Shown here piece by piece: positions 1 to 16,787 of a stretch of 64,000 nucleotides of DNA. The translations under genes were made by a program, and so were the position numbers. The stretch's first letter is position 1; each line of letters opens with the position of its first letter. The notes below the pieces were generated by a model, which saw only the letters and a program-made list of their open reading frames with translations, ran no database searches and was not told the DNA's origin. Source of the stretch: Aminobacter ciceronei (lineage in GTDB: Bacteria; Pseudomonadota; Alphaproteobacteria; Rhizobiales; Rhizobiaceae); assembly GCF_014138625.1 (NCBI RefSeq), contig NZ_JACJHY010000020.1, forward strand, positions 1 to 64,000, read 5' to 3'.

Positions 1-670
1 CTGGCCCGAAGCGACCGCCTACAACAGGGCCCAGGTGCTCTATTATCTCGCCGAGAACCTGTCCGGCCGCACGGAAGAGTTCGCGACCCGCATCGCCGAA
101 CTGACCGGTGCTGCCCACAAGGCTGCCAAGTCAGAAGTCGAGGCCTCGATCGAGCGGCTGTTCTATTATGCCGGCATGGCCGACAAGTTCGAGGGCAGGG
201 TGCACCAGCCGCCGGCGCGCACCGTCACGCTTGCCCTGCACGAGCCTGTCGGCGTCATCGGCATCGTTGCCCCTGACGAGGCGCCGCTGCTCGGCCTGAT
301 CTCGCTGCTCGCCCCGGCACTTGCCATGGGCAACACCACGGTCGTGGTGCCCTCGGCCGCCGCCCCGCTCGTGGCCACCGACCTCTACCAGGTACTCGAG
401 TATTCAGACGTCCCTGCCGGTGCGATCAACATCGTCACCGGGCATACGGCGGAACTCACAGCCGTGCTTGCCAAGCATGACGACGTCGACGGCCTCTGGG
501 TCGTCGCCGAGGCCGAGATCTGCGCCAAAGCGGAGGCTGAATCGACTGGCAATCTCAAGCGCGTCTGGACCGGGCACGGCCGCAGCCTCGACTGGCCGAC
601 CGCCCAGGGCGAAGCCTTCCTCCGCCGCGCCGTCGAGATCAAGAACGTCTGGGTCCCATACGGGGACTGA
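1..670 (+). CDS. Aldehyde dehydrogenase family protein, 3' part (5' end outside window)
   Basis: The reading frame is open from the first base, so only the last 222 residues are seen. They contain segments typical of the NAD-binding part of an aldehyde dehydrogenase: an EPVGVIGIVAPDEAP stretch, an APALAMGNT stretch and a DVPAGAINIVTG stretch. The catalytic Cys-containing segment is absent from this part, and the protein ends soon after the Rossmann portion with an EIKNVWVPYG tail. This fits the second half of long two-part ALDH-like proteins in which the second unit is degenerate, which is a family-level inference. It converges on the marR gene and so is not part of that operon. The substrate is unknown. 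Confidence 0.75.
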   Translation, partial: WPEATAYNRAQVLYYLAENLSGRTEEFATRIAELTGAAHKAAKSEVEASIERLFYYAGMADKFEGRVHQPPARTVTLALHEPVGVIGIVAPDEAPLLGLISLLAPALAMGNTTVVVPSAAAPLVATDLYQVLEYSDVPAGAINIVTGHTAELTAVLAKHDDVDGLWVVAEAEICAKAEAESTGNLKRVWTGHGRSLDWPTAQGEAFLRRAVEIKNVWVPYGD

Positions 671-734: not shown

Positions 735-1163
735 TCAGCTTATCTTCGTCAGCAGCTGCAGCAGGGTCTCTGCGTCCTTCGCCGACAGCGGCGACAACGT
801 CTCCTCGGTGATCGTCCGCGCCCGCGGCAGAAGCTCGACGATGAGGCGGTGGCCCTCGTCGGTCAGCTTGACCATCAGGCGCCTTTTGTCGACCTCATGT
901 TTGGCCAGCTGCACCAGCCCGCGTGCCGCGAGCCGGTCGATGACGCCCTTCACGGTCGCCGCATCCATGGCGATCAGGCCGCCCAGCTGGTTCTGCGAGG
1001 TTTCGCCGACGTCGCGCAGCTTGGCGAGCGCGGCGAACTGCGGTGGCGTCAGGTCGGCAATATGCGTCGCGAAGATCGCGACGTGACGCTGGTTGGCCTT
1101 GCGCAGGACAAAACCGATCTGTCCCTGGACCTGGTAGGTACCTTCGGTGGTTTCGGGGCTCAT
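735..1163 (-). CDS. MarR family transcriptional regulator
   Basis: The 142-residue protein has the MarR winged-helix layout: a helix-turn-helix around residues 53-84 (ETSQNQLGGLIAMDAATVKGVIDRLAARGLV) and a wing with the DKRRLMVKLTDEG motif at about 92-104. The ATG at 1163 overlaps the stop of the DUF1185 gene by four bases. It is therefore probably the last gene of the operon that starts near 7757 and would autoregulate that operon in response to a pathway substrate (inference). The frame is open much further upstream, but that part is only the antisense-phase shadow of the neighbour. The 142-residue form matches the family length. Confidence 0.9.
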   Translation of the reverse strand: MSPETTEGTYQVQGQIGFVLRKANQRHVAIFATHIADLTPPQFAALAKLRDVGETSQNQLGGLIAMDAATVKGVIDRLAARGLVQLAKHEVDKRRLMVKLTDEGHRLIVELLPRARTITEETLSPLSAKDAETLLQLLTKIS

Positions 1164-1744
1164 CGCAAGCCATCCCAGGCCTTGATGTCGGAGGCCTTCA
1201 ATCCACCCATGCGGTCGTGAATGCGCGGCCCCGAGGTCATGACCAATGCAAAGACGATCTCGTCCGGTCGCGGCCCGTCGGGCACCCCCACTTCCATGGC
1301 ATCGAAATGGCTGCGCACATAGGCGGCGTTGACATGGCCGATCGGCACGTCGAGCCGCGCGCCGAAAGCACCCAGCTTCTTGGCCGAGGGCACGATCGCC
1401 TTGGCTTCGCCAAGCCGCTCGCGCATGGCGTAACCGCCGGGCACATGCCACAGCGCGCCGTGTTCCAGTTCGCCGGCCGAGCCGACAATGGCGCCTTTGC
1501 CATAACCGTCGATGGCCTTCGCATCGCCGCCCAGCGCCGCGATCAGCCGGTCGGACAGCATCAGCCCGAGCGGTTTCAGATCCTCCATCGCGCTCTCAAG
1601 CTCATCGACATAGCGGTCGGCGAACGGGTTCTTCACCACCGCAAGCGCTGCCGCTCGTCGTCGGGGGATATGCGCGGGTGGCCCTCCGTCGTGCAGGATT
1701 TCCTCGATCGTTACAGCGATCTTCCGGATCGGAAAGTCAGGCAT
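1160..1744 (-). CDS. Amino acid synthesis family protein (DUF1185)
   Basis: The 194-residue protein resembles the DUF1185 family, whose database name 'amino acid synthesis' reflects genomic context and not a shown reaction. Family-like features are the N-terminal IRKIAVTIEEILHDGG, the central KNPFADRYVDELE and the C-terminal IHDRMGGLKASDIKAWDG. No classical catalytic motif can be read. Its start overlaps the UPF0280 gene by eight bases and its stop overlaps marR by four, so it is translated as part of the oxidoreductase operon. A role in handling a ring-opened or reduced intermediate is only an inference from context. Confidence 0.85.
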   Translation of the reverse strand: MPDFPIRKIAVTIEEILHDGGPPAHIPRRRAAALAVVKNPFADRYVDELESAMEDLKPLGLMLSDRLIAALGGDAKAIDGYGKGAIVGSAGELEHGALWHVPGGYAMRERLGEAKAIVPSAKKLGAFGARLDVPIGHVNAAYVRSHFDAMEVGVPDGPRPDEIVFALVMTSGPRIHDRMGGLKASDIKAWDGLR

Positions 1745-2618
1745 GGACAGGTTCCCCCCTTGTCACACCATCGGTTACGGCAAGCTCATGCGTGCCGCTT
1801 ATGCGGGTTCGGCCTCCTAGGTATAGAGCTGCAGTCTGGATCGACCCTTGCCGCCGCAAGGATTCGGCCACGGAAAATCCGGCGTCGAGCGCCGCCTCGA
1901 TGTCGGCGGGGGCAAGCGGTGCGACGTCTGTCGTCACCAGCCGGTCGCCAAGGTCGCTGTCGGGCGCCAGGTCGGACGCTGGCCTGCGGTGGATGGCTGT
2001 GTGGCCGGGCAGGTCGACAGCGTTGGCGATCAGCGTCGCCGCAGCATCGGCCGCGGCCGCGTTTACCGCGAGCACCGTTACAGCGTCGGCGATGCCGAGC
2101 GAAAAGCTGCGGCCGCGCCAGCCGCTGGTGGCGATGCCGCGCACTGCGTCCTGCCAGTGGATCGTCAGCCTGTCGGCCAGGCCGTGGCCCGTGCCGGCAA
2201 TCGCCACCGAGAACTCCTGGCCACGGGCGATGTGCAGGGCGATGTCACCGCCATTGTTGACATAGGCGCGCTCGATTGAACGCCCGGCGATCATCGCGGC
2301 CATCATCTCGTCGGCGACAGAACCTGCGACGGCGGCCATCGGTGTGATGAACTGCCCAGCCAAAGGCGCGACGGCGGCTTCCATGCGCCGCGCCGTTGGT
2401 CCGTCAAAGTCGCGGGGCCTTGACGATGCCGGGCGGCGCAGTTGGGCAAGCTCCTCGACCAGCTCGTCCAGGATGGTCTGGAAGCGTTCCGCCGCCTGTT
2501 CGTAAGCAGCGCGCACCTCGCCGGTCTCGCCAAGTGCCTCGACGATCAGGTCGATGGGGCCATGATTGAAATGCAGGCGGTGCTTGTCGGGCAGCCAGGA
2601 GATTTCGGGTCCATTCAT
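1737..2618 (-). CDS. UPF0280 family protein
   Basis: The 293-residue protein begins with WLPDKHRLHFNHGPIDLIVEALG, typical of UPF0280, a family distantly related in fold to the ApbE flavin-transferase group. A central segment (VADEMMAAMIAGRSIERAYVNNGGDIALHIARGQEFSVAI) carries the NNGGDI motif seen in ApbE-like proteins. The function is not established. If it is a flavin transferase it could flavinylate a protein of this operon, possibly the reductase encoded immediately upstream (inference). The start overlaps the reductase stop by four bases, which indicates translational coupling. Confidence 0.85.
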   Translation of the reverse strand: MNGPEISWLPDKHRLHFNHGPIDLIVEALGETGEVRAAYEQAAERFQTILDELVEELAQLRRPASSRPRDFDGPTARRMEAAVAPLAGQFITPMAAVAGSVADEMMAAMIAGRSIERAYVNNGGDIALHIARGQEFSVAIAGTGHGLADRLTIHWQDAVRGIATSGWRGRSFSLGIADAVTVLAVNAAAADAAATLIANAVDLPGHTAIHRRPASDLAPDSDLGDRLVTTDVAPLAPADIEAALDAGFSVAESLRRQGSIQTAALYLGGRTRISGTHELAVTDGVTRGEPVHA

Positions 2619-4150
2619 CGCGACCCGCCCGGCGCCGTCAGGCGCAACTGCGCCAGCGGTGGCCAGGGGTTGTCGGTCCCGGCCGCTTCCGTCGCCCGCT
2701 CGTTGAGATACTCGCCGCCGCGCGCCAGCACGTCGTCGATGCTCCTGATCTCGCCGTCATAGCCGCCCAGTGCCAGATAGTCGTCGCGCCGCAAGGTGAA
2801 TTCGATTGGCGCCACCAGGGCCGGTGTCGGCACATAACCGAAAGCGTTGTCGGGCACCCTGAGGACGTCGACCATCAGCGTGATGCCGCCGCCCGGCCAG
2901 ACATAGACAGGCGCGCCGCCCACCGTCACGTAGGTTCTCAGGCCTTGCACCGAACGTGTCAGGTTGACCGGGTTTTCCGTCACCCCGGCGCGCAGGCTGC
3001 CGCCGGCGCCGCCGACGAATAGCACGGTACACAAAGCCGGCTCACAATTGTCCTCGATCAGCCCAACCGACTTGCGCAAGCGGTCCGGGAACGGCTTCTT
3101 GACCGGCATCAATTCGTCGTTGAGCTCGTAATAGGCGAACTGCTCGCCCGTCGTCGAAACCATCAGCAGCGACAGGCCGGGCCGCGCGCCTTTCTTGGCA
3201 TTCCAATCGCCGAGGATCTCGAGCGGGTCGGAGATGCTGGTTCCACCCCAGCCGAGGCCGGGCTCCGACACCTTGAAATAACGCCCCGGCGTCGAGCGGC
3301 GGCCGAGGATCTTAATGCCGGTCTCCTCCCAGCCAAGCACCTTGCCGGCCTGGTGCTCGGAGACGACGCCAGTGATGTGGTCGTCGACGACAACCACCTC
3401 GTCAACGAGCCCGCGCCATTGCGTGGCGAACATGCCTATGGTCGCCGAGCCACAGCCGACGCGCATGCGGTGTTCGGTCGTGCCATCGATGACCGGCGGC
3501 TTGCCGGCCTCGACCACGATGGCGGCGCCGCCGTCGATGCTCAGCTCGACGGGCTTCTTGTTGCAGAGGTCGAGCAGCACCGCGCAGGTCACCCGGCCTT
3601 CGCTCTTCGAGCCGCCGGTCAAATGGTGGACGCCACCGAGCGACAGCATCTGCGAGCCGTATTCGCCCGTCGTCACATGGCCGATGGCCTCGCCCTGGGC
3701 ACGCACCGTCGCCGTCTCGGGGCCGAGATGGCGGTCGGTGTCGATCTTCACCTTGACGCCGCAATAGGAGAAGATGCCCTCGGTGACGACGGTGACTAGA
3801 TCGACGCCTGCGAGCTGCTGGCTGACGATGAACGGTGCCGGCTTGTAGTCGGGATAGGTGGTGCCGGCACCGATGGCGGTAACGAAGCGCCGCCCGGTGT
3901 TGACCAGTTCGCCATCCCACGCCTCGCCGCTGAAAGGCACCACGGAATTGCCGCTTTCGACCGCGAAATCGAGCACGCGGACTGGGTCGGCGCGCACGAT
4001 CATGCCGCCGAAATTGCCGTAGCGGTCGCAGGCGCCGGTGTGCCCTTCGGCGATGTAGCACATCACGGGGCAGGCATCGCAGCGCAGCTTTTCGCCCGCC
4101 TGCCTGTCGCCGGCCGGGTGTGTCTCGAAACGCTCGGAAAGCTCGTTCAT
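2615..4150 (-). CDS. 6-hydroxynicotinate reductase-like iron-sulfur protein
   Basis: The 511-residue protein resembles the 6-hydroxynicotinate reductase family, named from the anaerobic nicotinate fermenter Eubacterium barkeri, where it reduces 6-hydroxynicotinate to 1,4,5,6-tetrahydro-6-oxonicotinate. Four cysteines near the N-terminus (C24, C27, C31, C41, in RCDACPVMCYIAEGHTGAC) could bind an iron-sulfur cluster. The rest is rich in glycine motifs, with no obvious Rossmann P-loop. The gene lies in a run of four-base overlaps with the molybdenum hydroxylase genes upstream and UPF0280 downstream. Substrate assignment is by homology plus context. A different hydroxylated N-heterocycle is possible. 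Confidence 0.8.
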   Translation of the reverse strand: MNELSERFETHPAGDRQAGEKLRCDACPVMCYIAEGHTGACDRYGNFGGMIVRADPVRVLDFAVESGNSVVPFSGEAWDGELVNTGRRFVTAIGAGTTYPDYKPAPFIVSQQLAGVDLVTVVTEGIFSYCGVKVKIDTDRHLGPETATVRAQGEAIGHVTTGEYGSQMLSLGGVHHLTGGSKSEGRVTCAVLLDLCNKKPVELSIDGGAAIVVEAGKPPVIDGTTEHRMRVGCGSATIGMFATQWRGLVDEVVVVDDHITGVVSEHQAGKVLGWEETGIKILGRRSTPGRYFKVSEPGLGWGGTSISDPLEILGDWNAKKGARPGLSLLMVSTTGEQFAYYELNDELMPVKKPFPDRLRKSVGLIEDNCEPALCTVLFVGGAGGSLRAGVTENPVNLTRSVQGLRTYVTVGGAPVYVWPGGGITLMVDVLRVPDNAFGYVPTPALVAPIEFTLRRDDYLALGGYDGEIRSIDDVLARGGEYLNERATEAAGTDNPWPPLAQLRLTAPGGSR

Positions 4151-6903
4151 CGACGTGCCTCCTCGATTGCGGCCAGGATTCGCGACGGCGTTGCCGGCAC
4201 CTTGGTGATCGCCACTCCGATGGCGTGGCGGATGGCGTTGAGGATGGCGGGCGCCGTCGGGATCAGCACATGCTCGCCCAAACCCTTGGCGCCAAAGGGT
4301 CCTTCCGGGTCCGGAACTTCCACCAGTATGGTTTCTATCGGCGGCACGTCACCGATCGTCGGGATCAGGTAGTCGTGCAGGTTCTCGGTACGGCCGGGAA
4401 TGTACTCTTCCATCAGCGCCATGCCGATGCCCTGGGCGATGCCGCCCTCGATCTGGCCTTCGGCAAGCAGCGGGTTGATCGCCCGGCCGACATCATGCGC
4501 CGCGGTGATCTTGATCAGCTTCACGGTGCCAAGCCTCATGTCGACCTCAAGCTCGGCGATCTGCGCGCCATAGCCGTAGACAGCATAAGGTTTGCCTTGG
4601 CCCTTGGCATCGAGCGTCGTCGTCGGCGGGTCGTAGCTTTCCTCGGCGGCGAAGACAAGGCCGTCCTTGTCCACTTCGAGCAGCGTCAGATCGATGCGCC
4701 GCCGCTCGCCGCCCTCATGCACCAGGAGCAGTCCGCCCGGCAAAAGCTGCAGCGACGCTTTGGCCGAGACATTGGCAAAGCGCAGGATGCCGTCTCGCAA
4801 GGCTTTCGCGGACTTTTCCGCCGCTTTTCCCGAGACATAGGTCTGGCGCGACGCCGAGGTCTTGCCCGCATCGGGTGTAACAGCCGTATCGGCACTTCGA
4901 AGCACGAAATCGCCGAGCGGCAGGCCAAGCGCGTCGGCGGCGATCTGGGCGATGACGGTGTTGGCGCCCTGGCCGATGTCGACCGCGCCCTGGTGCAGCA
5001 CGACCTTGCCTTCGGGCGAGATGCCCAGCTTGATTGTCGAGGGGTTGGGCAAAGACGTGTTGCCGCAGCCATACCAGCACGAGGCGATTCCGACGCCGCG
5101 CTTGATCTTGCCGTTGGCCGCGTTGAAAGCGTCCGCTTCGGCCAGCGCGCGTGTCCAGCGCAGGCTCAGCGCCTCGAGGCAGTCGCCGATGCCGACACCG
5201 GTGTCGAGCCGCTGCCCGGTCACCGTTTCGGAGCCGTTTCGAAGAGCATTTTTCAAGCGTATCTGCAACCGGTCGAGGCCAAGCTTGTCGGCCAGTTGGT
5301 CGAGCAGCGTCTCTTGCATCAGGGTAGCCTGCGGCACGCCGAAACCACGGAACGCGCCCGACACCGGGCCATTGGTGTGGATGGCGCGAGCGATGGCGCG
5401 GTAATGCGGCGTGGCATAGGGCCCGGAGGCATGCACCGGCACGCGATTGGCGACGGTCGGGCCGAAGCTGGCATAGGCACCGGTGTTGAACTCGCCATCG
5501 AACACCATGCCGCGAATGGTGCCGTCGGCATTGGCGCCGATTGTTGCCTTCATCGCGGCCGGATGGCGCTTCGTCGTCGAGGCCATCGATTCGGTGCGGC
5601 TATAGGCAAGGGCTGCCGGGCGCCCTGTCTTCAGTGCCACCAGCCCTATGAGCGGTTGCAGCGAAACGTCGATCTTGGAGCCAAAGCCGCCGCCGGTCGC
5701 CGTCGGCAGGATACGCACTTTTTCCACCGCGAGACCAAGGATACGCGCCGTGTCGTCGCGATCCAGATGCGGTGCCTGAGTGCAGGCTGCGATCGTCAGC
5801 GTATCGCTGTCCATCAATGCATAGCCGGCTTCCGGTTCGATGTAGGCGTGCTCGACATAGGAGGTCTGCATGCTGCCGGAGACCACGCATGCGGCCTGCG
5901 CCAGGGCACTTTCCGGCTCGCCGCGCTCGACAAGGCCGCGCACCAGCAGGTTGTCGGGTCGGTTGGCATGGACCAGCACTGCGCCTTGCGCCTGGGAAGT
6001 GGCCGGCTCCAGTGCTGCCGGCAACTCGCGCCAGGTGATGGGGAAAGACGTCACATCCAGGTCGCGCGCCGCCCAGCCTTCGCAAGCGACAAGCGCCACC
6101 GCCTCGCCACGGAAACGTGTCTCGCTCTCGGCCAGTGCCGGCTGGTCGGCAAAAGGCGGGATAACGCCGAAGCTGTTGATGCCGGGGATGTCGCCGGCGG
6201 TGAAAACCGCAACGATGCCCGCATTGCCTGCGACGTAGGCGTCGAGGTCGCCGAACGAGAATGCGGCTCGGTGATGCGGCGAGCGGATCACCAGCACCGA
6301 CAACGCATCGGCGGGAAATGAATCGCCGCCGAATCCTTCGCTGCCAATCACCTTCGGGATGCCGTCGAGCCTGATGGGCGAGGCGCCTACGGCCGAACCA
6401 GCCGGGGGCATGCGAAAATCAAGAGATGGTGGCAGCATAAAGTGCCATGCCTCCATCACCGCCTCGACGATCTTGCGATAGCCGGTGCAGCGGCACAGGA
6501 CCCCGCCGAGCGCGTCCTGGACCTGTTGTTCGCTTGGGCGCGGCTCCCGTTCCAGCAACGCAGTTGCCGTCACAAGCAGTCCGGGCGTGCAGAAACCGCA
6601 TTGCGCGGCGCCATGTGCCAGGAACGACGCCTGCAGCGCCGAGAGGTCGCTGCCCCGCAGCCCTTCCACGGTGCGGATCGAAGCGCCTTCGACCGAGGCC
6701 ATCGGCAGCAGGCAGGCGCAGACGGGCTCGCCGCCGAGCAGCACGGTGCAGGCGCCGCAATCGCCGGCATCGCAGCCGACCTTGGTGCCCGTCAGCCTGA
6801 GGTCGTCGCGCAGTACCGACGACAGGCGCCGCATCGGCGCAGCGGACACCGACACGGAGGCGCCGTTGACAGTGAAGCTGATCGGCGCCCGGTCGGTTTT
6901 CAT
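4147..6903 (-). CDS. Xanthine dehydrogenase-family oxidoreductase, fused [2Fe-2S] and molybdopterin-binding subunits
   Basis: The first 165 or so of 918 residues form an iron-sulfur domain. A plant-ferredoxin-type cluster site has C44, C49, C52 and C64, and a second four-cysteine site has C102, C105, C137 and C139 (CGFCTPG and CRCTGYRKIV). The remainder is the large molybdenum cofactor domain with GGGFGSK, SGAFRGFGVPQ and a C-terminal GAKGLGE motif whose glutamate is the expected catalytic base. Most relatives split these parts into small and large subunits, so this is a fusion. The FAD subunit is encoded just upstream with a four-base overlap. By context it probably hydroxylates a nicotinate-like ring, and nicotinate, purine or aldehyde substrates cannot be told apart from sequence. 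Confidence 0.9.
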   Translation of the reverse strand: MKTDRAPISFTVNGASVSVSAAPMRRLSSVLRDDLRLTGTKVGCDAGDCGACTVLLGGEPVCACLLPMASVEGASIRTVEGLRGSDLSALQASFLAHGAAQCGFCTPGLLVTATALLEREPRPSEQQVQDALGGVLCRCTGYRKIVEAVMEAWHFMLPPSLDFRMPPAGSAVGASPIRLDGIPKVIGSEGFGGDSFPADALSVLVIRSPHHRAAFSFGDLDAYVAGNAGIVAVFTAGDIPGINSFGVIPPFADQPALAESETRFRGEAVALVACEGWAARDLDVTSFPITWRELPAALEPATSQAQGAVLVHANRPDNLLVRGLVERGEPESALAQAACVVSGSMQTSYVEHAYIEPEAGYALMDSDTLTIAACTQAPHLDRDDTARILGLAVEKVRILPTATGGGFGSKIDVSLQPLIGLVALKTGRPAALAYSRTESMASTTKRHPAAMKATIGANADGTIRGMVFDGEFNTGAYASFGPTVANRVPVHASGPYATPHYRAIARAIHTNGPVSGAFRGFGVPQATLMQETLLDQLADKLGLDRLQIRLKNALRNGSETVTGQRLDTGVGIGDCLEALSLRWTRALAEADAFNAANGKIKRGVGIASCWYGCGNTSLPNPSTIKLGISPEGKVVLHQGAVDIGQGANTVIAQIAADALGLPLGDFVLRSADTAVTPDAGKTSASRQTYVSGKAAEKSAKALRDGILRFANVSAKASLQLLPGGLLLVHEGGERRRIDLTLLEVDKDGLVFAAEESYDPPTTTLDAKGQGKPYAVYGYGAQIAELEVDMRLGTVKLIKITAAHDVGRAINPLLAEGQIEGGIAQGIGMALMEEYIPGRTENLHDYLIPTIGDVPPIETILVEVPDPEGPFGAKGLGEHVLIPTAPAILNAIRHAIGVAITKVPATPSRILAAIEEARR

Positions 6904-7757
6904 GCCGCCGTCCGTCTCTGCGAGCCATGCGTTGCAAGCAGAAGCGCCCGCGCCACGATTTCGCGCGCAGCACTTCGCCTGTATCCGGCACTGCCGCGCA
7001 CATCGTCGATTGGTGACAATTCATCCAATCCGGCAGCTTGCACCGCGGCTTCGGCGATCTCCGGCCTATGCCCGACAAGTGCTGCTTCCAGCGCGTGCAG
7101 CCGTCGCGCCACGGCCGAGCACGACCCCACCGAAATCGCCGCGCTTGCGATCCGCGCGTCCGTACCGAGCACGACCCTGGCCGCCGCCATGGCGATCGAA
7201 ATGACCAGATAGCGCCGCGCACCCAGTTTGACGAAGGCCGAGCTGCCGCCAGTGCTGGCCTTGGGAATGCGCAGCGCCGTCACCAGCTCGTCCTCGCGCA
7301 GCTTGGTTCGGCGGTTGCCTATGATGAACGCGCCAAGCGGCAAAATGCGCATCTCGTGGCGCGACCGCAGCTCGACCTCGGCGTCGAGGATCATCAGCGC
7401 CGGTACCCCATCGGCGGCCGGTGAGGCGTTGCATATGTTGCCGGCTATCGACGCGACGTGCTGAATCTGGATCGAGCCAATTTCGCGCGCCGCCTGCTTC
7501 AGCGCGTCGAAGGCCGGCGGCAGCGGCGCCTGGATGATCTCGGTCCAACTGGTGCGCGCACCAATGACGAAGTGATTGTCGCTTTCGGTGATGCCGCGCA
7601 GTGCGCCGATGTCATTGATATCGATTACATCGAAATAGAGAGGCCGGTTGCCAAGAGCGGGATAAACGTCCGTCGCACCCGCCAACACTCGCCAAGAGCC
7701 CTCGCTGAGCAGCGCCAGCGCCTCGTCGAGTGACTTGGGTTTCGCGTAACGGGTCAC
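6900..7757 (-). CDS. FAD-binding subunit of xanthine dehydrogenase family
   Basis: The 285-residue protein matches the medium, FAD-binding subunit of molybdenum hydroxylases. The first flavin motif is VLAGATDVYP at about 23-32, and the second is the HVASIAGNICNASPAAD stretch near the middle of the protein. A CO dehydrogenase flavoprotein-like C-terminal domain follows. It passes electrons from the iron-sulfur centres of its partner to an acceptor. It is the first gene of the minus-strand operon, and its promoter must lie in the 200 bases before the divergent nicotinamidase gene. The start MTRYAKPKSLDEAL fits the family N-terminus. Confidence 0.92.
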   Translation of the reverse strand: MTRYAKPKSLDEALALLSEGSWRVLAGATDVYPALGNRPLYFDVIDINDIGALRGITESDNHFVIGARTSWTEIIQAPLPPAFDALKQAAREIGSIQIQHVASIAGNICNASPAADGVPALMILDAEVELRSRHEMRILPLGAFIIGNRRTKLREDELVTALRIPKASTGGSSAFVKLGARRYLVISIAMAAARVVLGTDARIASAAISVGSCSAVARRLHALEAALVGHRPEIAEAAVQAAGLDELSPIDDVRGSAGYRRSAAREIVARALLLATHGSQRRTAA

Positions 7758-7958
7758 GCAATGCCTCCCGGCTGTTGCCGGACATTTTCATTCGTACACA
7801 AGTGATAACCTGCCGCGATCTTTTGTCAAAGCCTGGCTTTACTTCGCCGGATCACGGTGGGCGCATGGCGGCCAAGTTGAAGGTTGACGCCGGCCGCCAT
7901 CTGGTCGAATTTCGACGGCCCGCCAGCACGGCGGTATCAGAAACGAGTTGGGGACATC
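7758..7958. promoter_or_regulatory. Divergent promoter region between the hydroxylase operon and pncA
   Basis: These bases separate two divergently read genes and must contain both promoters. The stretch around 7780-7815 is AT-richer than the surroundings and holds TTCGTACACAAG, which loosely resembles the TTGTATACAT-like sequence found near 14953-14964 before another operon. No perfect operator palindrome was found. The nicotinamidase start has a GGGGA ribosome-binding sequence about seven bases upstream. Confidence 0.45.
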
Positions 7959-8558
7959 ATGGCTACGGACGCGCTCGTCGTCGTCGATCTGCAAAACGAC
8001 TTCTGCCCTGGCGGCGCGCTTGCCGTGAATGGGGGCGACGAGATCATCCCGCTGGTCAATGACCTGATCCGCCACAGCGAGCACGTGCTGCTTACCCAGG
8101 ATTGGCATCCGGCCGGTCATTCGAGCTTCGCCTCGAGCCATCCCGGCAAGCAGCCTTTCGAAAGTGTCCGCATGTCCTATGGCCCCCAAACGCTGTGGCC
8201 GGATCACTGCATTCAGGGCAGCCGCGGCGCCGATTTCCATTCCGGGCTCGCCTGGTCCAAGGCCGAACTGGTTATCCGCAAGGGGTTTCGTCCGAACATT
8301 GACAGCTACTCGGCGTTTTTCGAGAACGACCGCTTCACGCCGACGGGCCTTGCCGGATACCTGCGCGAGCGCGACGTCGCCTCGATCACGCTTGTCGGCC
8401 TCGCCACCGATTTCTGCGTCGCCTATTCGGCGCTTGATGCGGTCAAGCATGGCTTCGCCACCACGGTGCGGCTCGATGCGTGCCGCGCGATCGATCTGGG
8501 CGGTTCCCTCGACTCGATGATCGGCAAGATGCGTGACGCCGGCGTCAAGCTGGTCTGA
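7959..8558 (+). CDS. pncA: Nicotinamidase / pyrazinamidase
   Basis: The 199-residue isochorismatase-fold hydrolase converts nicotinamide to nicotinate. The N-terminal ALVVVDLQNDFCPGGAL carries the catalytic Asp and the early family signature. DWHPAGHSSFASSH supplies metal-binding Asp and His residues. LATDFCVAYSALDAVKHGF contains the nucleophilic cysteine. The ATG at 7959 was chosen over an upstream ATG because a GGGGA sequence precedes it and the family N-terminus begins here. With pncB at 16.8-18.1 kb it could serve NAD salvage, or feed nicotinate into the adjacent hydroxylase/reductase operon. Confidence 0.93.
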   Translation: MATDALVVVDLQNDFCPGGALAVNGGDEIIPLVNDLIRHSEHVLLTQDWHPAGHSSFASSHPGKQPFESVRMSYGPQTLWPDHCIQGSRGADFHSGLAWSKAELVIRKGFRPNIDSYSAFFENDRFTPTGLAGYLRERDVASITLVGLATDFCVAYSALDAVKHGFATTVRLDACRAIDLGGSLDSMIGKMRDAGVKLV

Positions 8559-8642: not shown

Positions 8643-10070
8643 ATGAAGGGTTCGCGTATTGCGGCAGCGTCTCTGGCGCTGGCCTGCCTGCTGGCGAGTG
8701 CAAGCACCGCGCTGGCTGCCGAGCAGGGATTGCCCGGGGCGACGATGTCGTTGGTGTGGGCACTGCCGTTTGCGGGATTGCTGCTCTCCATCGCCACCGG
8801 GCCGCTGCTTTATCCGCACCTCTGGGAGCAGCACTACGGCAAGATCACAGCCGGCTGGGCGGCGCTGGTGGTGGTGCCGATGGCGCTGTCTTTCGGCTTC
8901 GACATCTCAGTCGAGGCCGTGCTGCACACGCTGCTGCTCGAATACATGTCCTTCATCATTCTTTTGTTTGCCCTTTTCACCATCTCGGGCGGCATCCTGG
9001 TGGCAGGCAACATCCAGGGCACGCCGCTCATCAATGCCGGCCTTCTGGTCATTGGCGCGTTGCTGGCCTCCGTCGTCGGCACCACCGGCGCGTCGATGAT
9101 CATGATCCGGCCGGTGATCCGCGCCAACGACAACCGGCCGTTTAACGCCCATGTCATCGTCTTCTTCATCTTCCTGGTGTCCAACATCGGCGGCTCGCTG
9201 ACGCCGCTCGGCGACCCACCGCTGTTCGTCGGCTTTCTGCGCGGCGTAGACTTCTTCTGGACCACCGTCCATCTCTGGCGCGAGGCGCTGTTGGTCGGCG
9301 GCATCGTGCTGGCCGCCTTCCTCGCCGTCGATTGGCACTTTCACCGGCGCGAGTCCGGGCAGCCCAAGGTCAAGGACCCGACACCACATTCGAAGGTGCG
9401 CATCCGCGGACTTGCCAATATCGCTTTGCTCGCCGGTGTCATCGCCGCGATCCTGATGTCGGCGTCATGGAAGCCCGGCGTCGCGTTCTCCGTCTACGGC
9501 GTCCATGTCGAACTTCAGAACCTCGTCCGTGACGCCATCATCCTGGCATTGGCCTTCGTGTCACTGGCGGTCACCCGCAAGGAATACCGCGCCGCCAACG
9601 GGTTTTCATGGGGTCCTATTCTCGAAGTGGCCAAGCTGTTTGCCGGCATCTTCGTTTGCATCGTGCCCGTCATCGCCATCCTGCGCGCCGGGCTAGATGG
9701 GGCTTTCGCGCCGCTGGTGGGGCTGGTCACCGGACCGGGCGGCAAGCCTGACAACCTCGCCTATTTCTGGCTGACGGGCGTGCTGTCGTCCTTCCTCGAC
9801 AATGCGCCGACCTATCTCGTCTTCTTCGAGCTTGCCGGCGGAGACCCACAGGCGCTGATGACGACCTTTGCCACAACACTGGTGGCGATCTCGGCCGGCG
9901 CCGTGTTCATGGGCGCCAACACCTATATCGGCAATGCGCCGAACTTCATGGTCTACGCCATCGCCCGGGAAAGCGGGGTCAGGATGCCCGGCTTTTTCGG
10001 CTACATGCTGTGGTCGAGCGCGATGCTGATCCCGACCTTCCTGATCGCGGGGTTTGTGTTCTTCGCCTAA
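8643..10070 (+). CDS. NhaD-type sodium:proton antiporter
   Basis: The 475-residue membrane protein starts with a signal-like hydrophobic stretch ending in ALAAEQG and continues with roughly twelve hydrophobic segments. Motifs typical of the NhaD/ArsB ion transporter superfamily are SNIGGSLTPLGDPPLFVGFLRG in the middle and SSFLDNAPTYLVFFELAGG near the C-terminus, with NTYIGNAPNFMVYAI close to the end. It should exchange Na+ or Li+ for protons across the inner membrane. The stop overlaps the convergent livF stop by four bases. It stands alone in its orientation. Confidence 0.85.
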   Translation: MKGSRIAAASLALACLLASASTALAAEQGLPGATMSLVWALPFAGLLLSIATGPLLYPHLWEQHYGKITAGWAALVVVPMALSFGFDISVEAVLHTLLLEYMSFIILLFALFTISGGILVAGNIQGTPLINAGLLVIGALLASVVGTTGASMIMIRPVIRANDNRPFNAHVIVFFIFLVSNIGGSLTPLGDPPLFVGFLRGVDFFWTTVHLWREALLVGGIVLAAFLAVDWHFHRRESGQPKVKDPTPHSKVRIRGLANIALLAGVIAAILMSASWKPGVAFSVYGVHVELQNLVRDAIILALAFVSLAVTRKEYRAANGFSWGPILEVAKLFAGIFVCIVPVIAILRAGLDGAFAPLVGLVTGPGGKPDNLAYFWLTGVLSSFLDNAPTYLVFFELAGGDPQALMTTFATTLVAISAGAVFMGANTYIGNAPNFMVYAIARESGVRMPGFFGYMLWSSAMLIPTFLIAGFVFFA

Positions 10071-10774
10071 CCCACGCCGACATAGCGCCTGACCATCCCA
10101 GGATCCTCGCGCAGCCGCCCCACGTCCACCGTCTCGCGGTTGCGACCGTTCTCAATGAAGGCGACGCGATCGGCGACGGGCAGCACGGCGTCGACGCGCT
10201 GTTCGACGAGAATGGTCGAGACATCGCGCTCGCGCAGCCTGGCCACGGTTTCGCGGATATTGGCGATCATCGACGGCATCAGCCCTTCGGTCGGCTCGTC
10301 GAGCAGCAGGACCTCGGGTTCAACACACAGCGCGCGCGCCATGGCCAGCATCTGCTGCTCGCCGCCCGACAACGTGCCGGAGCGCTGCTTCAGCCGGTCG
10401 CGCAACAGCGGGAACAGGTCGAGCACGCTGTCGCGCACCGCCTTGCCCCTCTTGCGGGTCATCAGGCCGATCTCGATGTTTTCGGCGACGGTCAGCTCGG
10501 CAAACAGCCGGCGCCCTTGCGGCACATAAGCCACACCCGCCTTTGGCACCTCGTGCGCAGGGAGCTCGGTCAGCACGCGTTCGCCCAGCCTGATCGAGCC
10601 CGCACGCGCCGGCACCAGCCCCATGATCGCCTTCAGCGTCGTGGTCTTGCCGGCGCCGTTACGGCCGAGCAGGCACAGCACCTCGCCCTTGCGCAGTTCG
10701 AGGTCGAGGCCGTGCAGCACCTGCACTTCGCCGTAAAAGCAGTCGAGGCCTGATATCGTCAGCGCCGCATTCAT
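10067..10774 (-). CDS. livF: Branched-chain amino acid-type ABC transporter, ATP-binding protein LivF
   Basis: The 235-residue ATPase has a Walker A motif GRNGAGKTTTLKAI, a Q-loop YVPQGRRLFAELTV, the LSGGEQQMLAMARAL signature, Walker B VLLLDEPTEGL and the family's switch histidine replaced in the usual LivF manner (ILVEQ). This is the shorter of the two ATPases of HAAT-family importers. It follows livG with a four-base overlap and is the last gene of the operon. Which solute is carried is not deducible. The family includes branched-chain amino acid, amide and urea importers. Confidence 0.93.
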   Translation of the reverse strand: MNAALTISGLDCFYGEVQVLHGLDLELRKGEVLCLLGRNGAGKTTTLKAIMGLVPARAGSIRLGERVLTELPAHEVPKAGVAYVPQGRRLFAELTVAENIEIGLMTRKRGKAVRDSVLDLFPLLRDRLKQRSGTLSGGEQQMLAMARALCVEPEVLLLDEPTEGLMPSMIANIRETVARLRERDVSTILVEQRVDAVLPVADRVAFIENGRNRETVDVGRLREDPGMVRRYVGVG

Positions 10775-11508
10775 GCTTCGGCCTCCTGAGCGGTGCCAAG
10801 ATAGGCTTCTTGCACGGCGGCGTTGGCGCGGATCTCGGCCGGGCTGCCTTCGGCGAGGATCCTGCCGGCATTGAACACGCTGATGCGACGGGCCAGCGCC
10901 ATGACAACGGGCATGTTGTGCTCGATCAGCAGGATGGTGGCGTCACGGGCGATCTCGCGGGCCAGGGCGATGAAGTTCTCGATCTCGCCGTCCGACAGGC
11001 CCTGCGTCGGTTCGTCGAGAATGAGCAGACGCGGCCTGAGCGCCAGGCCCATGGCCACCTCGAGCAGCCGCTGGTGGCCATAGGCCAGAGTGCCGGCCTG
11101 CTCATGCGCGCGGCCAGCGAGGCCGACGCGCTCCAGCGCCTCCATCGCCCCTTGCCGCACCGCGCCGCGCGACCGGCCGTCGGTCAGTGTGCGCTGTACC
11201 GGCAGGGCGACGTTGTCGTAGGCGCTGAGATTGGCGAAGACGCTGGTGATCTGGAAGGTGTAGGCGATGCCGCGCCGGACCCGCAGATGCGCCGGCATGG
11301 CGGTGATATCCTCGCCGTCGAAGACGATACTGCCTGAGGTCGGTGCGTAGCGGCCGCAGACGAGGCTGACGAAAGTGGTCTTGCCGGCGCCGTTGGGGCC
11401 GATCACCGCCCTGATCTCGCCCGGCTCAAGCGAGAAGTCGACATTGTCGACGGCGCGCAGGCCGCCGAAATGACGCGACAGACCCTTGGTGGTCAGAAGC
11501 GCCGTCAC
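10771..11508 (-). CDS. livG: Branched-chain amino acid-type ABC transporter, ATP-binding protein LivG
   Basis: The start is taken as a GTG at 11508, which overlaps the livM stop in a GTGA. The frame is open far upstream but only as a shadow of livM. The 245-residue product has Walker [14 protein letters not shown], a LivG-type signature region [16 protein letters not shown] in place of the canonical LSGGQ, Walker [12 protein letters not shown] and switch histidine LIEHNM. The divergent signature is normal for LivG. It pairs with LivF on the LivHM membrane channel. Confidence 0.92.
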
Positions 11509-12470
11509 GGCAGCCACCCGAGCCAGCGGTCGCGCAGCGTGCCGAGAACGCCCTTGCGGAACCAGAGCACCAACAGGATCAGCATTGCGCCGACAATAAG
11601 CATGTAGGCCGAGGTGTAGCTGCTGGTGATGTCGATCACGTAGTACATGAACAATGTGCCGAGCAGCGGCCCGAGTGTGGTCGCGGCACCGCCGAGCAGC
11701 ACCCAGAGCAGTGGCAGGATCGAATATTGCACCGAGGCAAATGTCGAGCCGACATAGCCGAACAACAGGGCATAGGCCGCCCCGGCCGCGGCACAGATGA
11801 CGCCCGAGGTGACGACTGCCGCCAGCTTGTTGGCGAAGGTGTCGTAGCCAAGCATCTTCGCGCGCTCCTCGTTTTCGCGGATCGCGACCAGCACACGGCC
11901 GTGGCGCGAGCGGACGATGGCGAGCGTGGCGAACAGGGCAGCGGCAAACAGCGCCACTGCCGAGAGATAGCGCGTCGCCGGGTTGGTCAGGTCGAGCGTG
12001 CCGGTTCCCAAAGTGATCTGCCGCGCCTGCTGCTGCAGCACCAGCCCCTCGTCGCCGCGCGTCCATGCGCCGAAATAGAGTGTTACGAGATAAAACACCT
12101 GGGCAAACATCATGGTCACGATCATGAAGGCGACACCCGAAGTCCGGAGCGCCAGCAGGCCGACAATCAGCGACACGAGGAAGCCCGCGCCGACGCCACC
12201 GGCAAAGGCCGGCACCACGCCCCAGCCAAGATGATAGAGCGGCAGCCCGGCGCCATAGAGCCCGGCGGCGAAGAACATGGCGTGGCCGAGGCTCAAGAGC
12301 CCGACATAACCGAACAGAAGGTTGTAGCCCATGGCGAAGATGGCCAGCACCAGCACCCGCGCCAGAACGCCATGGTGGTATTCGGGCAGGATGTAGTTGA
12401 GCGCGACGAGCAGGGCGATGACCACTGCATGCAACGCGTAGACCCTGGCCGTCGCCCCGTCGCCGCTCAT
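11505..12470 (-). CDS. livM: Branched-chain amino acid-type ABC transporter permease LivM
   Basis: The 321-residue permease has eight or more hydrophobic segments and the LivM hallmark GYNLLFGYVGLLSLGHAMFFAAGLYGAG near residues 48-75, plus AIRENEERAKMLGYDTFANKL in the cytoplasmic loop that contacts the ATPase. It overlaps livH upstream and livG downstream by four bases each, so the four transport genes form one translationally coupled unit. Confidence 0.92.
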   Translation of the reverse strand: MSGDGATARVYALHAVVIALLVALNYILPEYHHGVLARVLVLAIFAMGYNLLFGYVGLLSLGHAMFFAAGLYGAGLPLYHLGWGVVPAFAGGVGAGFLVSLIVGLLALRTSGVAFMIVTMMFAQVFYLVTLYFGAWTRGDEGLVLQQQARQITLGTGTLDLTNPATRYLSAVALFAAALFATLAIVRSRHGRVLVAIRENEERAKMLGYDTFANKLAAVVTSGVICAAAGAAYALLFGYVGSTFASVQYSILPLLWVLLGGAATTLGPLLGTLFMYYVIDITSSYTSAYMLIVGAMLILLVLWFRKGVLGTLRDRWLGWLP

Positions 12471-13360
12471 TTTGTCGCCGTTCCGAACAGGCCCTGCGGC
12501 CGGAACACCAGCACCATGGCGACGACGAGCGTGGCGATGATCTTGGCCAGGGTCGGCGAGAAGAACACCGAGATGATGCCGTCGGATACGCCGATGAGAA
12601 GGGCGGCAATGACGGTGCCGCGCAGCGAGCCCAGCCCGCCGATGATGACGACGATGAACGACAGCAACAGCGGGTCGAGACCCATCAAATAATGCGCCTG
12701 CTGGATCGGCACGATCAGCACGGCGGCGATTGCCGCGAGCATCGCGCCAAGCGCGAACACCGCGCCATAGACGCGTCCGACCGGGATGCCGAAGGCCTGA
12801 GCGGTCTCACGGTCGTATTGAGTCGCCCGCATGACAAGGCCGATCCTCGTGCGGGTCAGCACCAGCCAGGTGGCAAGCAGCAAAAGCGCCGATGCGGCGA
12901 TGATCGACAGCTTGTAGCCGGAGTAGCCGAACCAGGGCAGCTGGATTCGGACGTTGAAGGGCGGCGTCACCGGCCGCGCCTCGGGGCCGTAGAAGGTCAG
13001 AGCCAGCTGCTGGATGATGTAGAGCAGGCCGATGGTGGCGACAATGGTGGCTTCCGGGTTGTAGTCGAGCCGGCGCAGGACAAGCCGCTCAGATATCCAG
13101 GCGATGAAGCCGACGATCAGCGGCGCCAGCACCAGGGCTGCGGCGAAGCCGAGAGCTGGGTGTCCACCAACGGCTGTGGTGATCGCCCATGCGAGCACGG
13201 CGCCGAGCATGAAGAATTCGCCATGCGCGACATTGACGATGCGCATCACGCCGAACACCAGCGACAGGCCAAGCGCGGTCAGCGCCAGCACTGCCGAGGT
13301 GACCAGGCCTTCGAGCGTGGCAAGCAGGAGATGCGGGAAGAAGGCCACTAGCCAACCCAC
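12467..13360 (-). CDS. livH: Branched-chain amino acid-type ABC transporter permease LivH
   Basis: The permease has the LivH signature GLSLVFGVMRIVNVAHGEFFMLGA near the N-terminus and the IIGGLGSLRGTVIAALLIGV motif near the C-terminus. The frame is open to 13414, but the extra residues (WRKWPAGQRGVRR) are translated from a palindromic repeat and are unlikely to be native. I place the start at the GTG at 13360 (VGWLVAFFPHLLL), giving 297 residues; another GTG at 13348 is possible. No ATG exists between the repeat and the conserved part, so the repeat may have replaced the original start region. Confidence 0.85.
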   Translation of the reverse strand: MGWLVAFFPHLLLATLEGLVTSAVLALTALGLSLVFGVMRIVNVAHGEFFMLGAVLAWAITTAVGGHPALGFAAALVLAPLIVGFIAWISERLVLRRLDYNPEATIVATIGLLYIIQQLALTFYGPEARPVTPPFNVRIQLPWFGYSGYKLSIIAASALLLLATWLVLTRTRIGLVMRATQYDRETAQAFGIPVGRVYGAVFALGAMLAAIAAVLIVPIQQAHYLMGLDPLLLSFIVVIIGGLGSLRGTVIAALLIGVSDGIISVFFSPTLAKIIATLVVAMVLVFRPQGLFGTATK

Positions 13361-13371
13361 CTGGGTTGCGC

Positions 13372-13537
13372 TTCGTCGCACCCCCCTCTGGCCTGCCGGC
13401 CATTTCCGCCACAAGGGGGGAGATCAGCTGACGCTGATATCTGCGCCAACCACGGACGGTGCAAGATGGCAGTGGCGACAGAGCTGCTTATCTCCCCCCT
13501 TGTGGGGGAAATGGCCGGCAGGCCAGAGGGGGGCAAC
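13372..13537. repeat. Inverted pair of palindromic intergenic repeats
   Basis: A left arm (about 13372-13425) and a right arm (about 13489-13537) are near-perfect inverted copies. Each combines a CCCCCCTCTGGCC box, a GCCTGCCGGCC palindrome and a CCACAAGGGGGGAGAT box. When translated they give the meaningless peptide MAGRPEGG. A related pair occurs near 16.6-16.8 kb. The type is typical of rhizobial intergenic mosaic elements. This copy separates the binding-protein gene from livH and forms a long potential hairpin in the transcript, which could dampen expression of the permease genes relative to the binding protein. Confidence 0.85.
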
Positions 13538-13573
13538 GTCGAGCGCATTACAGGCCAGTCTATCGCCGTACCC

Positions 13574-14878
13574 TCACAACGGCTGCGTCGTGTAGTCCGC
13601 CTCCGGCTCGTACAGACCGTCCTCGATCGAGGTCCGGTGGACGACGTTGAGCTTGCCGCCTTCGACCTTGGAGATGTTCTGGTGGCCGAAGACCTGGTGG
13701 ATCTTGCCGTTGAACGTCTTGTCGCCCTGCGGGTGCTCGGGACCTTCCTTGAACGCGGTCAGCGCCTCGGTCGCCTCGACAAGCTTGGCGCGGTCTTCGG
13801 GCCCCTTGTAGCCTGAATCCTCCATCGCCTTCTTGATGACGTAGAGCGTTTCCCAGCAGCCGAACATGTGGGCGGCGGTCGAGACGTCCTTGGCATCCGT
13901 CGTCGAGGCGCCGTTGTCGTCGATGCCGACGGCGGCGCGATACGCCTTCTGCGCCTCGCTGTCATTGGCTTGGGCGTAGCGCGGCGAGCCTTCCCAGAAA
14001 TGGCTGCCGTCGAGGAATTCGAGGCCCGGGCTGTTGATGTCGACGGCCTCGAGCGAGTCGATGAAGCCGAACAGCTGCGGCTTGGTCGAGCCGTAGAATT
14101 CGCCGAGCTCCTTGACGAAGGTCAAAACGCCTGGGCCGACCATGACGTGGTACAGCACCTCGGTATCGGCAGGGATCTGCGGCAGGTATTTGGTGAACGA
14201 GCTTTCGGTCGGCGGGATCGGAATCTGGGCGACGACCTCGCCGCCCTGCGCCTTGATGGCGGGCGCGAAATAGTCGCGATGGTCGTAGCCGAAAGCGTAG
14301 TCCGGATAGATCATCGTCACCTTCTTGCCAAGGTTGGCCGCGACCCAGGGCGCGACCGAGGTGACCTGCGAGCGCACGTCGGTGATGCCGGGCTGGAACA
14401 CCCAGCGGTTCAGCTTACCCGAGGCGACGTGATAGCCTTCGCTGACGACATAATAGGGGATCTTGAGCTCGCCGGCGGTAGGCGCCGAGCCGACGACGAC
14501 ATGCGAGAACAGCGTGCCGAAGACGATGTCGGTCTTGTGCTGGCTGGCGAATTTCGCCACCACTTCGGCGCCGCGCTTGGGGTCGGTGCCGTCATCCTCG
14601 ACAATGATCTCGACCGGCCGTCCGTTGATGCCGCCGGCATCGTTGATCAGCTTGACGGCGGCGTTGGTGGTCTTTTCGTACCAGCGGCCATAGGCGGCGC
14701 CGATGCCGGTGCGGTGGGCCTGGAAGCCGATCTTGATCGGAGCGGAAGATTGCGCCTGTGAGTAGCGCACGAAACCCGGGGCTGCCATCAGGCCGGCGCC
14801 GGCGGCGATGCCTTTCAGCGCCGTGCGGCGGCTTAGGCGCGATTTTCCGAGGTCGAAGAAGCGATTGCTGTCAGTCAT
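13574..14878 (-). CDS. ABC transporter substrate-binding protein (branched-chain amino acid / amide type)
   Basis: The 434-residue binding protein has a twin-arginine signal: SRRTALKGIAAGAGLMAAPGFV, with probable cleavage near AQSSA. The mature part begins IKIGFQAHRTGIGAAYGRWYEKT, as in Leu/Ile/Val-binding-protein-like receptors, and includes a GGINGRPVEIIVEDDGTDP segment. The ATG at 14878 follows an AAGGGG ribosome-binding sequence. It is the first gene of the transport operon and is separated from livH by a 213-base gap filled with a palindromic repeat. The ligand may be an amino acid, an amide or an aromatic acid; sequence alone does not decide. Confidence 0.9.
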   Translation of the reverse strand: MTDSNRFFDLGKSRLSRRTALKGIAAGAGLMAAPGFVRYSQAQSSAPIKIGFQAHRTGIGAAYGRWYEKTTNAAVKLINDAGGINGRPVEIIVEDDGTDPKRGAEVVAKFASQHKTDIVFGTLFSHVVVGSAPTAGELKIPYYVVSEGYHVASGKLNRWVFQPGITDVRSQVTSVAPWVAANLGKKVTMIYPDYAFGYDHRDYFAPAIKAQGGEVVAQIPIPPTESSFTKYLPQIPADTEVLYHVMVGPGVLTFVKELGEFYGSTKPQLFGFIDSLEAVDINSPGLEFLDGSHFWEGSPRYAQANDSEAQKAYRAAVGIDDNGASTTDAKDVSTAAHMFGCWETLYVIKKAMEDSGYKGPEDRAKLVEATEALTAFKEGPEHPQGDKTFNGKIHQVFGHQNISKVEGGKLNVVHRTSIEDGLYEPEADYTTQPL

Positions 14879-14944
14879 GCCCTGTCCCCTTGCTGTGTCC
14901 TTTGACCAACGATCGTGCGGATTGGCAGCCCTTCCGCCGAGGGC

Positions 14945-14970
14945 GAAAAATTGCATGTATACAAACTAGA
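14945..14970 (-). promoter_or_regulatory. TGTATACA palindrome upstream of binding-protein gene
   Basis: A perfect eight-base palindrome TGTATACA at 14956-14963 lies in an AT-rich patch about 80 bases upstream of the binding-protein start (context TTGCATGTATACAAAC). Such TTG-TATAC-AA sequences are typical operators of GntR-type regulators, though no such regulator is encoded nearby. The role is an inference. Confidence 0.35.
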
Positions 14971-16481: not shown

Positions 16482-16596
16482 CACCTTGCCGGTGTGCCAC
16501 ATGGTCGGGGTCGCGGGAAGGGTGCGACTATCGACGGCGGATGGCGACAGGTGGTGACGCTCGCGCTTTGCGAGGCAACCCTTTAGCCTCGCGACC

Positions 16597-16787
16597 TTCG
16601 CACCTCCCTCTGGCCTGCCGGCCATCTCCCCCACAAGGAGGGAGATCACGTCTTCATCAGCCGCCCGGCCAACTACCAACGTTGCAAAGGCTCATCCATA
16701 CAACGTTGCAGAATGAGCGCCGCCGGCAACGAGACTAATCTCTCTCCTTGTGGGGGAGATACCCGGCCGGGCAGAGCGGGGTGCGAA
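16597..16787. repeat. Second inverted pair of palindromic repeats in the gap before pncB
   Basis: The gap of about 350 bases between the membrane-protein gene and pncB contains a left arm (about 16597-16648, with CTCTGGCCTGCCGGCCATCTC) and an inverted right arm (about 16738-16787, with CTCCTTGTGGGGGAGAT). Both belong to the same family as the pair near 13.4 kb but the right arm is more diverged. I see no gene here. Both flanking genes point to the minus strand, so the element lies in the 3' region of pncB and the 5' region of the membrane-protein gene. Confidence 0.8.

Follow-up and report, generated by a model that had tools for sequence, protein, structure and literature searches.

The start of a 64,000-nucleotide stretch of Aminobacter ciceronei DNA (the window, which begins contig C20 of a 6.77 Mb genome in 96 contigs, the contig end being window base 1) very probably encodes nicotinate degradation by ring hydroxylation, reduction by a 6-hydroxynicotinate-reductase-like protein (HNR) and opening by HyuAB, the last probably encoded just past the contig end, with proteins of the families UPF0280 and DUF1185 as helpers and a MarR-family regulator in control, in a Phyllobacteriaceae-like host. 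HNR, UPF0280 and DUF1185 are encoded by one gene each in this genome, and all lie among six minus-strand genes at 735–7757 whose successive overlaps are 4, 4, 4, 8 and 4 bases (Table 1). The initial annotation had recognized these six genes, among them a complete molybdenum (Mo) hydroxylase (FAD subunit plus fused [2Fe-2S]/Mo subunit), and a divergent nicotinamidase; family scans bear this out for all but HNR, and the nicotinamidase scores above its PRK11609 cut-off. New in this analysis are the pairing of HNR with UPF0280, the mutually exclusive candidate ring openers and the finding that DUF1185 is probably not the ring opener.

The pathway is already known, since nicotinate clusters of this kind have been published for Azorhizobium caulinodans, Bradyrhizobium japonicum, Rhodopseudomonas palustris and SG-6C (PMC3511419, in excerpt), and the notion that an aerobic reductive route is little described was thus too strong. 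The Hnr relative of the nicotinate-degrading SG-6C is 42% identical to Hnr of Eubacterium barkeri (PMC3511419, in excerpt), whose nicotinate fermentation is also mentioned elsewhere (PMC9304392 and PMC7356986, in excerpt). The window locus adds another member to this group, one whose hydroxylase is built differently.

From the gene content, families, partnerships and synteny observed here, we infer a substrate, a reaction order, an electron path, roles for UPF0280 and DUF1185, and an operator. An ATP-binding cassette (ABC) transporter would import nicotinate, which the FAD plus [2Fe-2S]/Mo hydroxylase would convert to 6-hydroxynicotinate; HNR would add two electrons, delivered from NADPH via ferredoxin-NADP reductase, to give 1,4,5,6-tetrahydro-6-oxonicotinate, and the ATP-dependent lactamase HyuAB would open the lactam, a step for which relatives would use an enamidase-like amidohydrolase. 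UPF0280 would serve exclusively in the maturation of HNR, most likely where its flavin is concerned, DUF1185 would act after or around ring opening, e.g., on the enamine or beta-formyl acid released by the lactamase, and MarR would repress the operon. In E. barkeri, Alhapel reportedly described in 2006 the reduction to tetrahydro-6-oxonicotinate followed by hydrolytic opening by an enamidase, whereas the opener of the window pathway would, by synteny, be HyuAB. The Mo nicotinate dehydrogenase of E. barkeri is the nearest solved relative of the window's Mo domain, although it has two separate Mo subunits (3hrd_A and 3hrd_B) and the window one fused subunit.

Pairing of HNR with UPF0280

At E 0.001, HNR had no family match in either Pfam or NCBIfam, and it takes its name from its relatives, 17 of 26 plasmid matches being annotated as 6-hydroxynicotinate reductase. 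Cys 24, 27, 31, 41, 130, 233 and 369 are invariant in 17 aligned sequences, which confirms the four-Cys site (the first four of these positions) that had been noticed initially. Gene neighborhoods were compared across 99 HNR loci, comprising the best 80 of at least 592, seven plasmid regions and 12 further genome regions; the choice of the best 80 biases this set toward near relatives of the window, which itself lies outside it, and two of its loci (L167 and L073) appear to be one genome counted twice. Co-occurrence of HNR, UPF0280 and DUF1185 was recorded in a sample of 299 genomes.

UPF0280 above the curated NF003322 cut-off (396.2 vs. 290 bits for the window protein) and HNR were found in the identical 21 of the 299 genomes, representing nine genera each; these counts exclude a weak HNR match in G237 (E 7.9e-4, 29%, one stop) and a weak, below-cut-off UPF0280 match in G293. 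The two genes adjoin each other in 96 of the 99 loci by the rule of our script, which is not a chance result. Among the three exceptions, the contig ends inside UPF0280 in L074, and in L077 UPF0280 starts another contig of the same genome and is followed by two DUF1185 genes. In the third (L166, genome G016), HNR lies in two overlapping frames and the distance was measured from one half, the UPF0280 and DUF1185 frames being open; the split may reflect a frameshift or a sequencing error, or else a form with two subunits. In two SAR116-type loci (L064 and L066), a UPF0280 protein 32–33% identical to that of the window and below the NF003322 cut-off adjoins HNR, and DUF1185 is absent from the locus. 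The initial annotation had asked whether the two families usually occur without the reductase, and the answer is split: UPF0280 above the NF003322 cut-off never does in our sample, whereas DUF1185 does in 21 of its 41 genomes.

Most of the UPF0280 protein has an ApbE fold; 2o34 is its best structural match, flavin transferases come next, and Asp191 and Thr195 of its ADxxxT motif, which we take to be the metal-binding positions of ApbE, are kept in 31 of 31 sequences. The E. barkeri enzyme is reported to carry covalent flavin. Maturation of HNR, perhaps by flavin attachment, is the best-supported role of UPF0280. The flavin transfer that had been suggested for it is thus plausible by the ApbE fold, although the catalytic His of ApbE is not conserved.

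Several observations speak against flavin attachment by UPF0280. The UPF0280 position aligned with the catalytic residue of ApbE (Vibrio cholerae His257) is occupied by His in 17 of 31 sequences, by Phe in 8 and by other residues in 6; at this His the profile alignment lacks the following loop and has a probability of only 35% (E 0.0004). The motif Dxx[ST]GA[ST], which we assume to be the ApbE target in a partner protein, occurs in 0 of 38 and 0 of 17 HNR sequences, and the shorter [ST]GA[ST] in 3 of 38. Since the AlphaFold model of HNR is poor (mean pLDDT 68.8, pTM 0.59) and the best structural match to it reaches only E 0.19, the flavin site cannot be placed. Likewise, HNR sequence profiles gave chance-level matches to solved structures (best E 0.25). 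A weak GCV_T_C match, seen in 13 of 17 members with a best E of 0.0047, stayed below cut-off, and a match of residues 18–52 to an AmmeMemoRadiSam enzyme, in which the Cys spacing fits, was too weak to be used (E 0.062).

Instead of a flavin, UPF0280 might handle sulfur or iron-sulfur clusters for HNR through persulfide or cluster chemistry, which we regard as less likely. It sits poorly with an ApbE fold across most of UPF0280 that has flavin transferases next after 2o34, with the invariant Asp and Thr (metal positions in ApbE) and with the covalent flavin reported for the E. barkeri enzyme. It would suit the seven invariant Cys of HNR and the lack of a conserved ApbE His, and a persulfide role has been proposed for COG2122 relatives that, together with DUF39, are required for homocysteine synthesis in Desulfovibrio (PMC5764234, in excerpt). 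That system belongs to the same broad family as the window UPF0280, with 2o34 as the solved relative, and differs in the partner protein, which is DUF39 there and HNR here. DUF39 (HcyBio) was found in 0 of 101 genomes searched, our own genome included, PF01837, which bears on kinship of HNR with DUF39, was not matched by HNR up to E 1 (17 members), and two methanogen controls match NF003322 below cut-off only. As a conjecture that we consider unlikely in this general form, UPF0280/COG2122 might be a client-specific cofactor-attachment family with an ApbE fold and a changed active site, serving the flavin of HNR here and maturation of the DUF39 homocysteine enzyme in methanogens and sulfate reducers. 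In the Creative Commons-licensed literature examined, among the matches listed, no role of UPF0280 or HyuAB in nicotinate breakdown was found.

Substrate of the pathway

The hydroxylase is of the nicotinate dehydrogenase type in its Mo domain: among solved proteins, both halves of this domain match the E. barkeri enzyme best (3hrd_A 249.8 bits, 3hrd_B 216.2 bits), with 4-hydroxybenzoyl-CoA reductase as the runner-up for each (149.4 and 153.8 bits). The transporter points in the same direction, as its binding protein is 70% identical to that of the Neorhizobium plasmid locus L093, a NicAB-HNR cluster that has NicA and NicB in place of the window's hydroxylase and in which the reductase, UPF0280, DUF1185, HyuAB and Fpr are present. 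The gene for nicotinate phosphoribosyltransferase (NAPRTase) comes next after the transporter in four of six same-family genomes fetched, the other two being cut by a contig start or having no transporter within the stretch, and it also occurs in the HNR loci L160, L161, L171 and L079. Together with the nicotinamidase neighbor and the published cluster (PMC3511419, in excerpt), these results support well, for nicotinate, the earlier proposal that a pyridine ring is hydroxylated and then reduced.

Other results count against nicotinate as the substrate. The whole FeS-Mo subunit matches the Desulfovibrio aldehyde oxidoreductase best (411.9 bits), and its top NCBIfam model is also an aldehyde oxidoreductase, at 568.2 bits far below the cut-off of 1100. 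Aldehyde oxidoreductase ranks first because 3hrd is split into separate chains; scored separately against the whole subunit these reach 249.8, 215.1 and 130.8 bits, and although their sum exceeds the aldehyde oxidoreductase score, it leaves the predicted specificity of the hydroxylase unproven. Homology to the characterized E. barkeri Hnr is second-hand, through annotations and the SG-6C identity. The nicotinamidase is present in 44 of 80 related loci, mostly of the Phyllobacteriaceae type, and may be incidental to the locus.

It is improbable, though consistent with some of these observations, that the operon serves another N-heterocycle (a pyridine carboxylate, pyridone or pyrimidine) by the same logic of hydroxylation, reduction and hydrolysis, the nearby nicotinate genes being coincidental or for NAD salvage. 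Hydroxylase types vary across the 99 HNR loci (FeS-Mo in 80, NicB in 8) and two different transporters occur among them, so that the HNR family may serve several substrates, and the whole-subunit ranking also fits such a reading; however, nicotinate dehydrogenase leads the Mo-domain matches by about 60 to 100 bits, the binding protein is shared with the NicAB cluster and NAPRTase recurs. Variation of this kind is seen within the order: genomes of 7–9 Mb (L159–L161, L163, L171 and L172) combine a NicAB-type hydroxylase with another transporter, whereas A. ciceronei has the FAD plus fused FeS-Mo hydroxylase in the window and HyuAB on contig C30.

Ring opening and DUF1185

Two types of candidate lactam opener exclude each other at the HNR loci. 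Of the 99, 34 have HyuAB (either gene), 7 have an enamidase-like amidohydrolase and none has both, and in an HNR tree of 78 sequences (26 with HyuAB, 6 with amidohydrolase and 46 uncounted) well-supported branches force at least three changes of opener. Neither is seen at 58 of the 99 loci, and 28 of their genomes were searched: 26 hold a HyuB relative of 75–80% elsewhere (three matches with one stop), six of these additionally an amidohydrolase of 60–63%, and the remaining two (L062 and L075) hold an amidohydrolase, at 74% (one stop) and 85%, respectively. Scored against the CapA and CapB models, HyuA and HyuB of HNR locus L088 reach 473.6 and 306.8 bits; an assignment as caprolactamase CapAB was rejected, these scores falling far short of the curated cut-offs (1000 bits each).

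The predicted opener of A. ciceronei itself probably lies just past the contig break. Past the end of the operon, Aminobacter niigataensis (L001) carries an aldehyde dehydrogenase, a gene that we take from its sequence to be DeoC-like, a ferredoxin-NADP reductase and HyuAB. Window base 1 aligns to base 14167 of L001 and contig C30 of our genome starts at L001 base 15773. Because these alignments continue the L001 order, C20 and C30 are probably neighbors with about 1.6 kb unassembled between them. C30 holds the ferredoxin-NADP reductase (67%), HyuA (66–67%) and HyuB (77%), and its positions 4938–6521, beside HyuA, match Hydantoinase_B at 519.7 bits, above the Pfam cut-off. A ferredoxin-NADP reductase of the C30 kind is present at 28 of the 99 HNR loci, and a PF00171 fragment at window positions 35–670 is the end of an aldehyde dehydrogenase.

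DUF1185 (230.9 vs. a Pfam cut-off of 27 bits for the window protein) is no more than 2.5 kb away from HNR in 87 of the 99 loci. It was not found within this distance in the other 12, four of them contig-cut, which counts against the proposed pathway; six of eight searched genomes of such loci have DUF1185 elsewhere. Of the 41 genomes with DUF1185 among the 299, 20 also have HNR and 21 do not, and G139 is the HNR genome that lacks DUF1185 (present in 20 of 21). Among 24 HNR-less DUF1185 loci, drawn from 20 of these 21 genomes (G238 left out) plus four further loci, an operon recurs in which DUF1185 is joined by genes for an alpha/beta-hydrolase (11 loci), a flavin reductase (8), a luciferase-like monooxygenase (11), an aldehyde dehydrogenase (16) and GntR (11), and others carry glyoxalase-fold, FAA-hydrolase and FAD-monooxygenase genes; neither lactam opener is present at 20 of the 24. 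At HNR loci, a second type of DUF1185 goes with the amidohydrolase (present in 7 of 7 such loci vs. 2 of 34 HyuAB loci; Fisher p 1.6e-6, uncorrected for relatedness), and DUF1185 may for this reason act near the lactam-opening step. In L168 and L169, an enamidase-like amidohydrolase of the same kind as those of 60–63% stands beside a tandem DUF1185 pair and MarR-like and isochorismatase-family genes without HNR, which is perhaps a sister pathway for another ring.

The known DUF1185 structure resembles chorismate mutase in its fold and contains a cavity in which His, Arg and Glu are conserved (PMC2954203, in excerpt). The family member HcdD of a 7-hydroxycoumarin operon, likened to TgnF of trigonelline degradation, likewise belongs to a ring-degradation operon, with neighboring chemistry unlike that of the window; excerpts of that study show no effect of HcdD (PMC7913881). 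That DUF1185 is itself the ring-opening hydrolase, as the initial annotation considered, would fit its closeness to the reductase and the tracking of the amidohydrolase by its second type but is hardly credible, since a close HyuB or amidohydrolase was found in 28 of 28 genomes (three HyuB matches and one amidohydrolase match with one stop), the two openers interchange while DUF1185 mostly persists, most HNR-less loci have neither and many have luciferase-like or FAD-monooxygenase genes, and no effect is visible for HcdD in that excerpt. Another candidate opener being at hand in every genome checked, DUF1185 is probably not the ring opener, and the common denominator of its loci would be a step on an enamine or beta-oxo acid from ring cleavage.

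Regulation and neighboring genes

MarR is a probable substrate-responsive repressor, and a MarR relative at one HNR locus is annotated as NicR. The longest open reading frame (735–1451) overstates the MarR gene, whose ATG at 1163 overlaps the stop of DUF1185. A candidate operator, an 18-base dyad, has three mismatches to the consensus in the window, a fit equaled by 10 of 100 shuffles and weak by itself. Allowing at most two mismatches, 37 of 67 loci have the dyad in the 300 bases before the FAD gene, and it stands at one other place in these loci, a count that is partly circular because the dyad was derived from the sequences counted. We make no claim for an operator shared with the transporter, as the dyad was present in the 400 bases before the binding-protein gene in only 1 of 24 cases.

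A branched-chain-type ABC transporter spans positions 10067–14956; the transporter, the protein and NAPRTase gene that follow it, and the truncation of the set by the contig end had been overlooked initially. No Pfam or NCBIfam family was found for the 15033–16679 protein in our scans; its cluster is present in 20 of 82 loci and accompanies the nicotinate-type transporter. The CitMHS_2-like gene between both operons has relatives in 28 of 80 related loci and is probably not part of the pathway. The string EMAGRPEGG, common to the open reading frame start translations at about 13400–13550 and 16600–16680, suggests that a dispersed intergenic repeat makes such calls longer.

Table 1 Features of the predicted nicotinate locus and its surroundings in the window
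Feature	Position	Strand	Basis
MarR-family regulator, 142 aa, ATG at 1163	735..1163	-	PF01047
DUF1185 / AA_synth (PF06684), type 1 copy	1160..1744	-	230.9 bits; solved relatives 3byq, 2qtp
UPF0280 (COG2122; NF003322), ApbE-like fold; putative HNR maturation factor	1737..2618	-	NF003322
HNR (6-hydroxynicotinate-reductase-like), four-Cys site	2615..4150	-	annotated relatives; invariant Cys
Mo hydroxylase, fused [2Fe-2S] x2 + molybdopterin subunit	4147..6903	-	Fer2, Fer2_2, MoCoBD_1, MoCoBD_2; 3hrd_A, 3hrd_B matches
Mo hydroxylase FAD subunit, GTG start	6900..7757	-	PF00941, PF03450 (FAD_binding_5, CO_deh_flav_C)
18-base dyad, consensus TCATTYGCATRCRAATGA; candidate MarR operator	7788..7805	.	overlaps -10 site
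Promoter-like site TTGACA-16-TATCAC (sigma-70-like)	7802..7829	-	read by eye; upstream of FAD gene
Nicotinamidase (PncA type), divergent from operon	7959..8558	+	PRK11609 (nicotinamidase/pyrazinamidase) 211.1 bits, cut-off 174
CitMHS_2 transporter-like gene between both operons	8643..10070	+	PF16980
ABC transporter ATPase (LivF type)	10067..10774	-	PF00005
Second ABC ATPase (LivG type)	10792..11508	-	tblastn match, 31% to first ATPase
ABC permease (LivM type)	11505..12470	-	PF02653
ABC permease (LivH type)	12467..13414	-	PF02653
Substrate-binding protein, probably of nicotinate	13574..14956	-	PF13458; 70% identity to L093 counterpart
Family-less protein, membrane protein by eye	15033..16679	-	conserved with transporter; L093 homolog 43%
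Nicotinate phosphoribosyltransferase (NAPRTase)	16834..18138	-	NF003704 520.7 bits, cut-off 379

Implications

Two conserved genes of nicotinate clusters have been carried as being of "unknown function" since at least 2012; they are probably UPF0280 and DUF1185, the families being unnamed in the excerpts of that paper (PMC3511419). COG2122 also figures in the methionine synthesis of anaerobes, and a strict partnership with HNR in aerobic, easily grown alphaproteobacteria offers a simple test of its function; if the family does attach cofactors to specific clients, one chemistry would account for an aerobic pyridine reductase as well as for an anaerobic sulfur pathway. The exchange of HyuAB and amidohydrolase suggests that a single pathway can be served by either an ATP-dependent or an ATP-free lactam opener; it also indicates what this group of HyuAB proteins is likely to act on. 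Overall, these gene partnerships make the roles of UPF0280 and DUF1185 sharper and testable.

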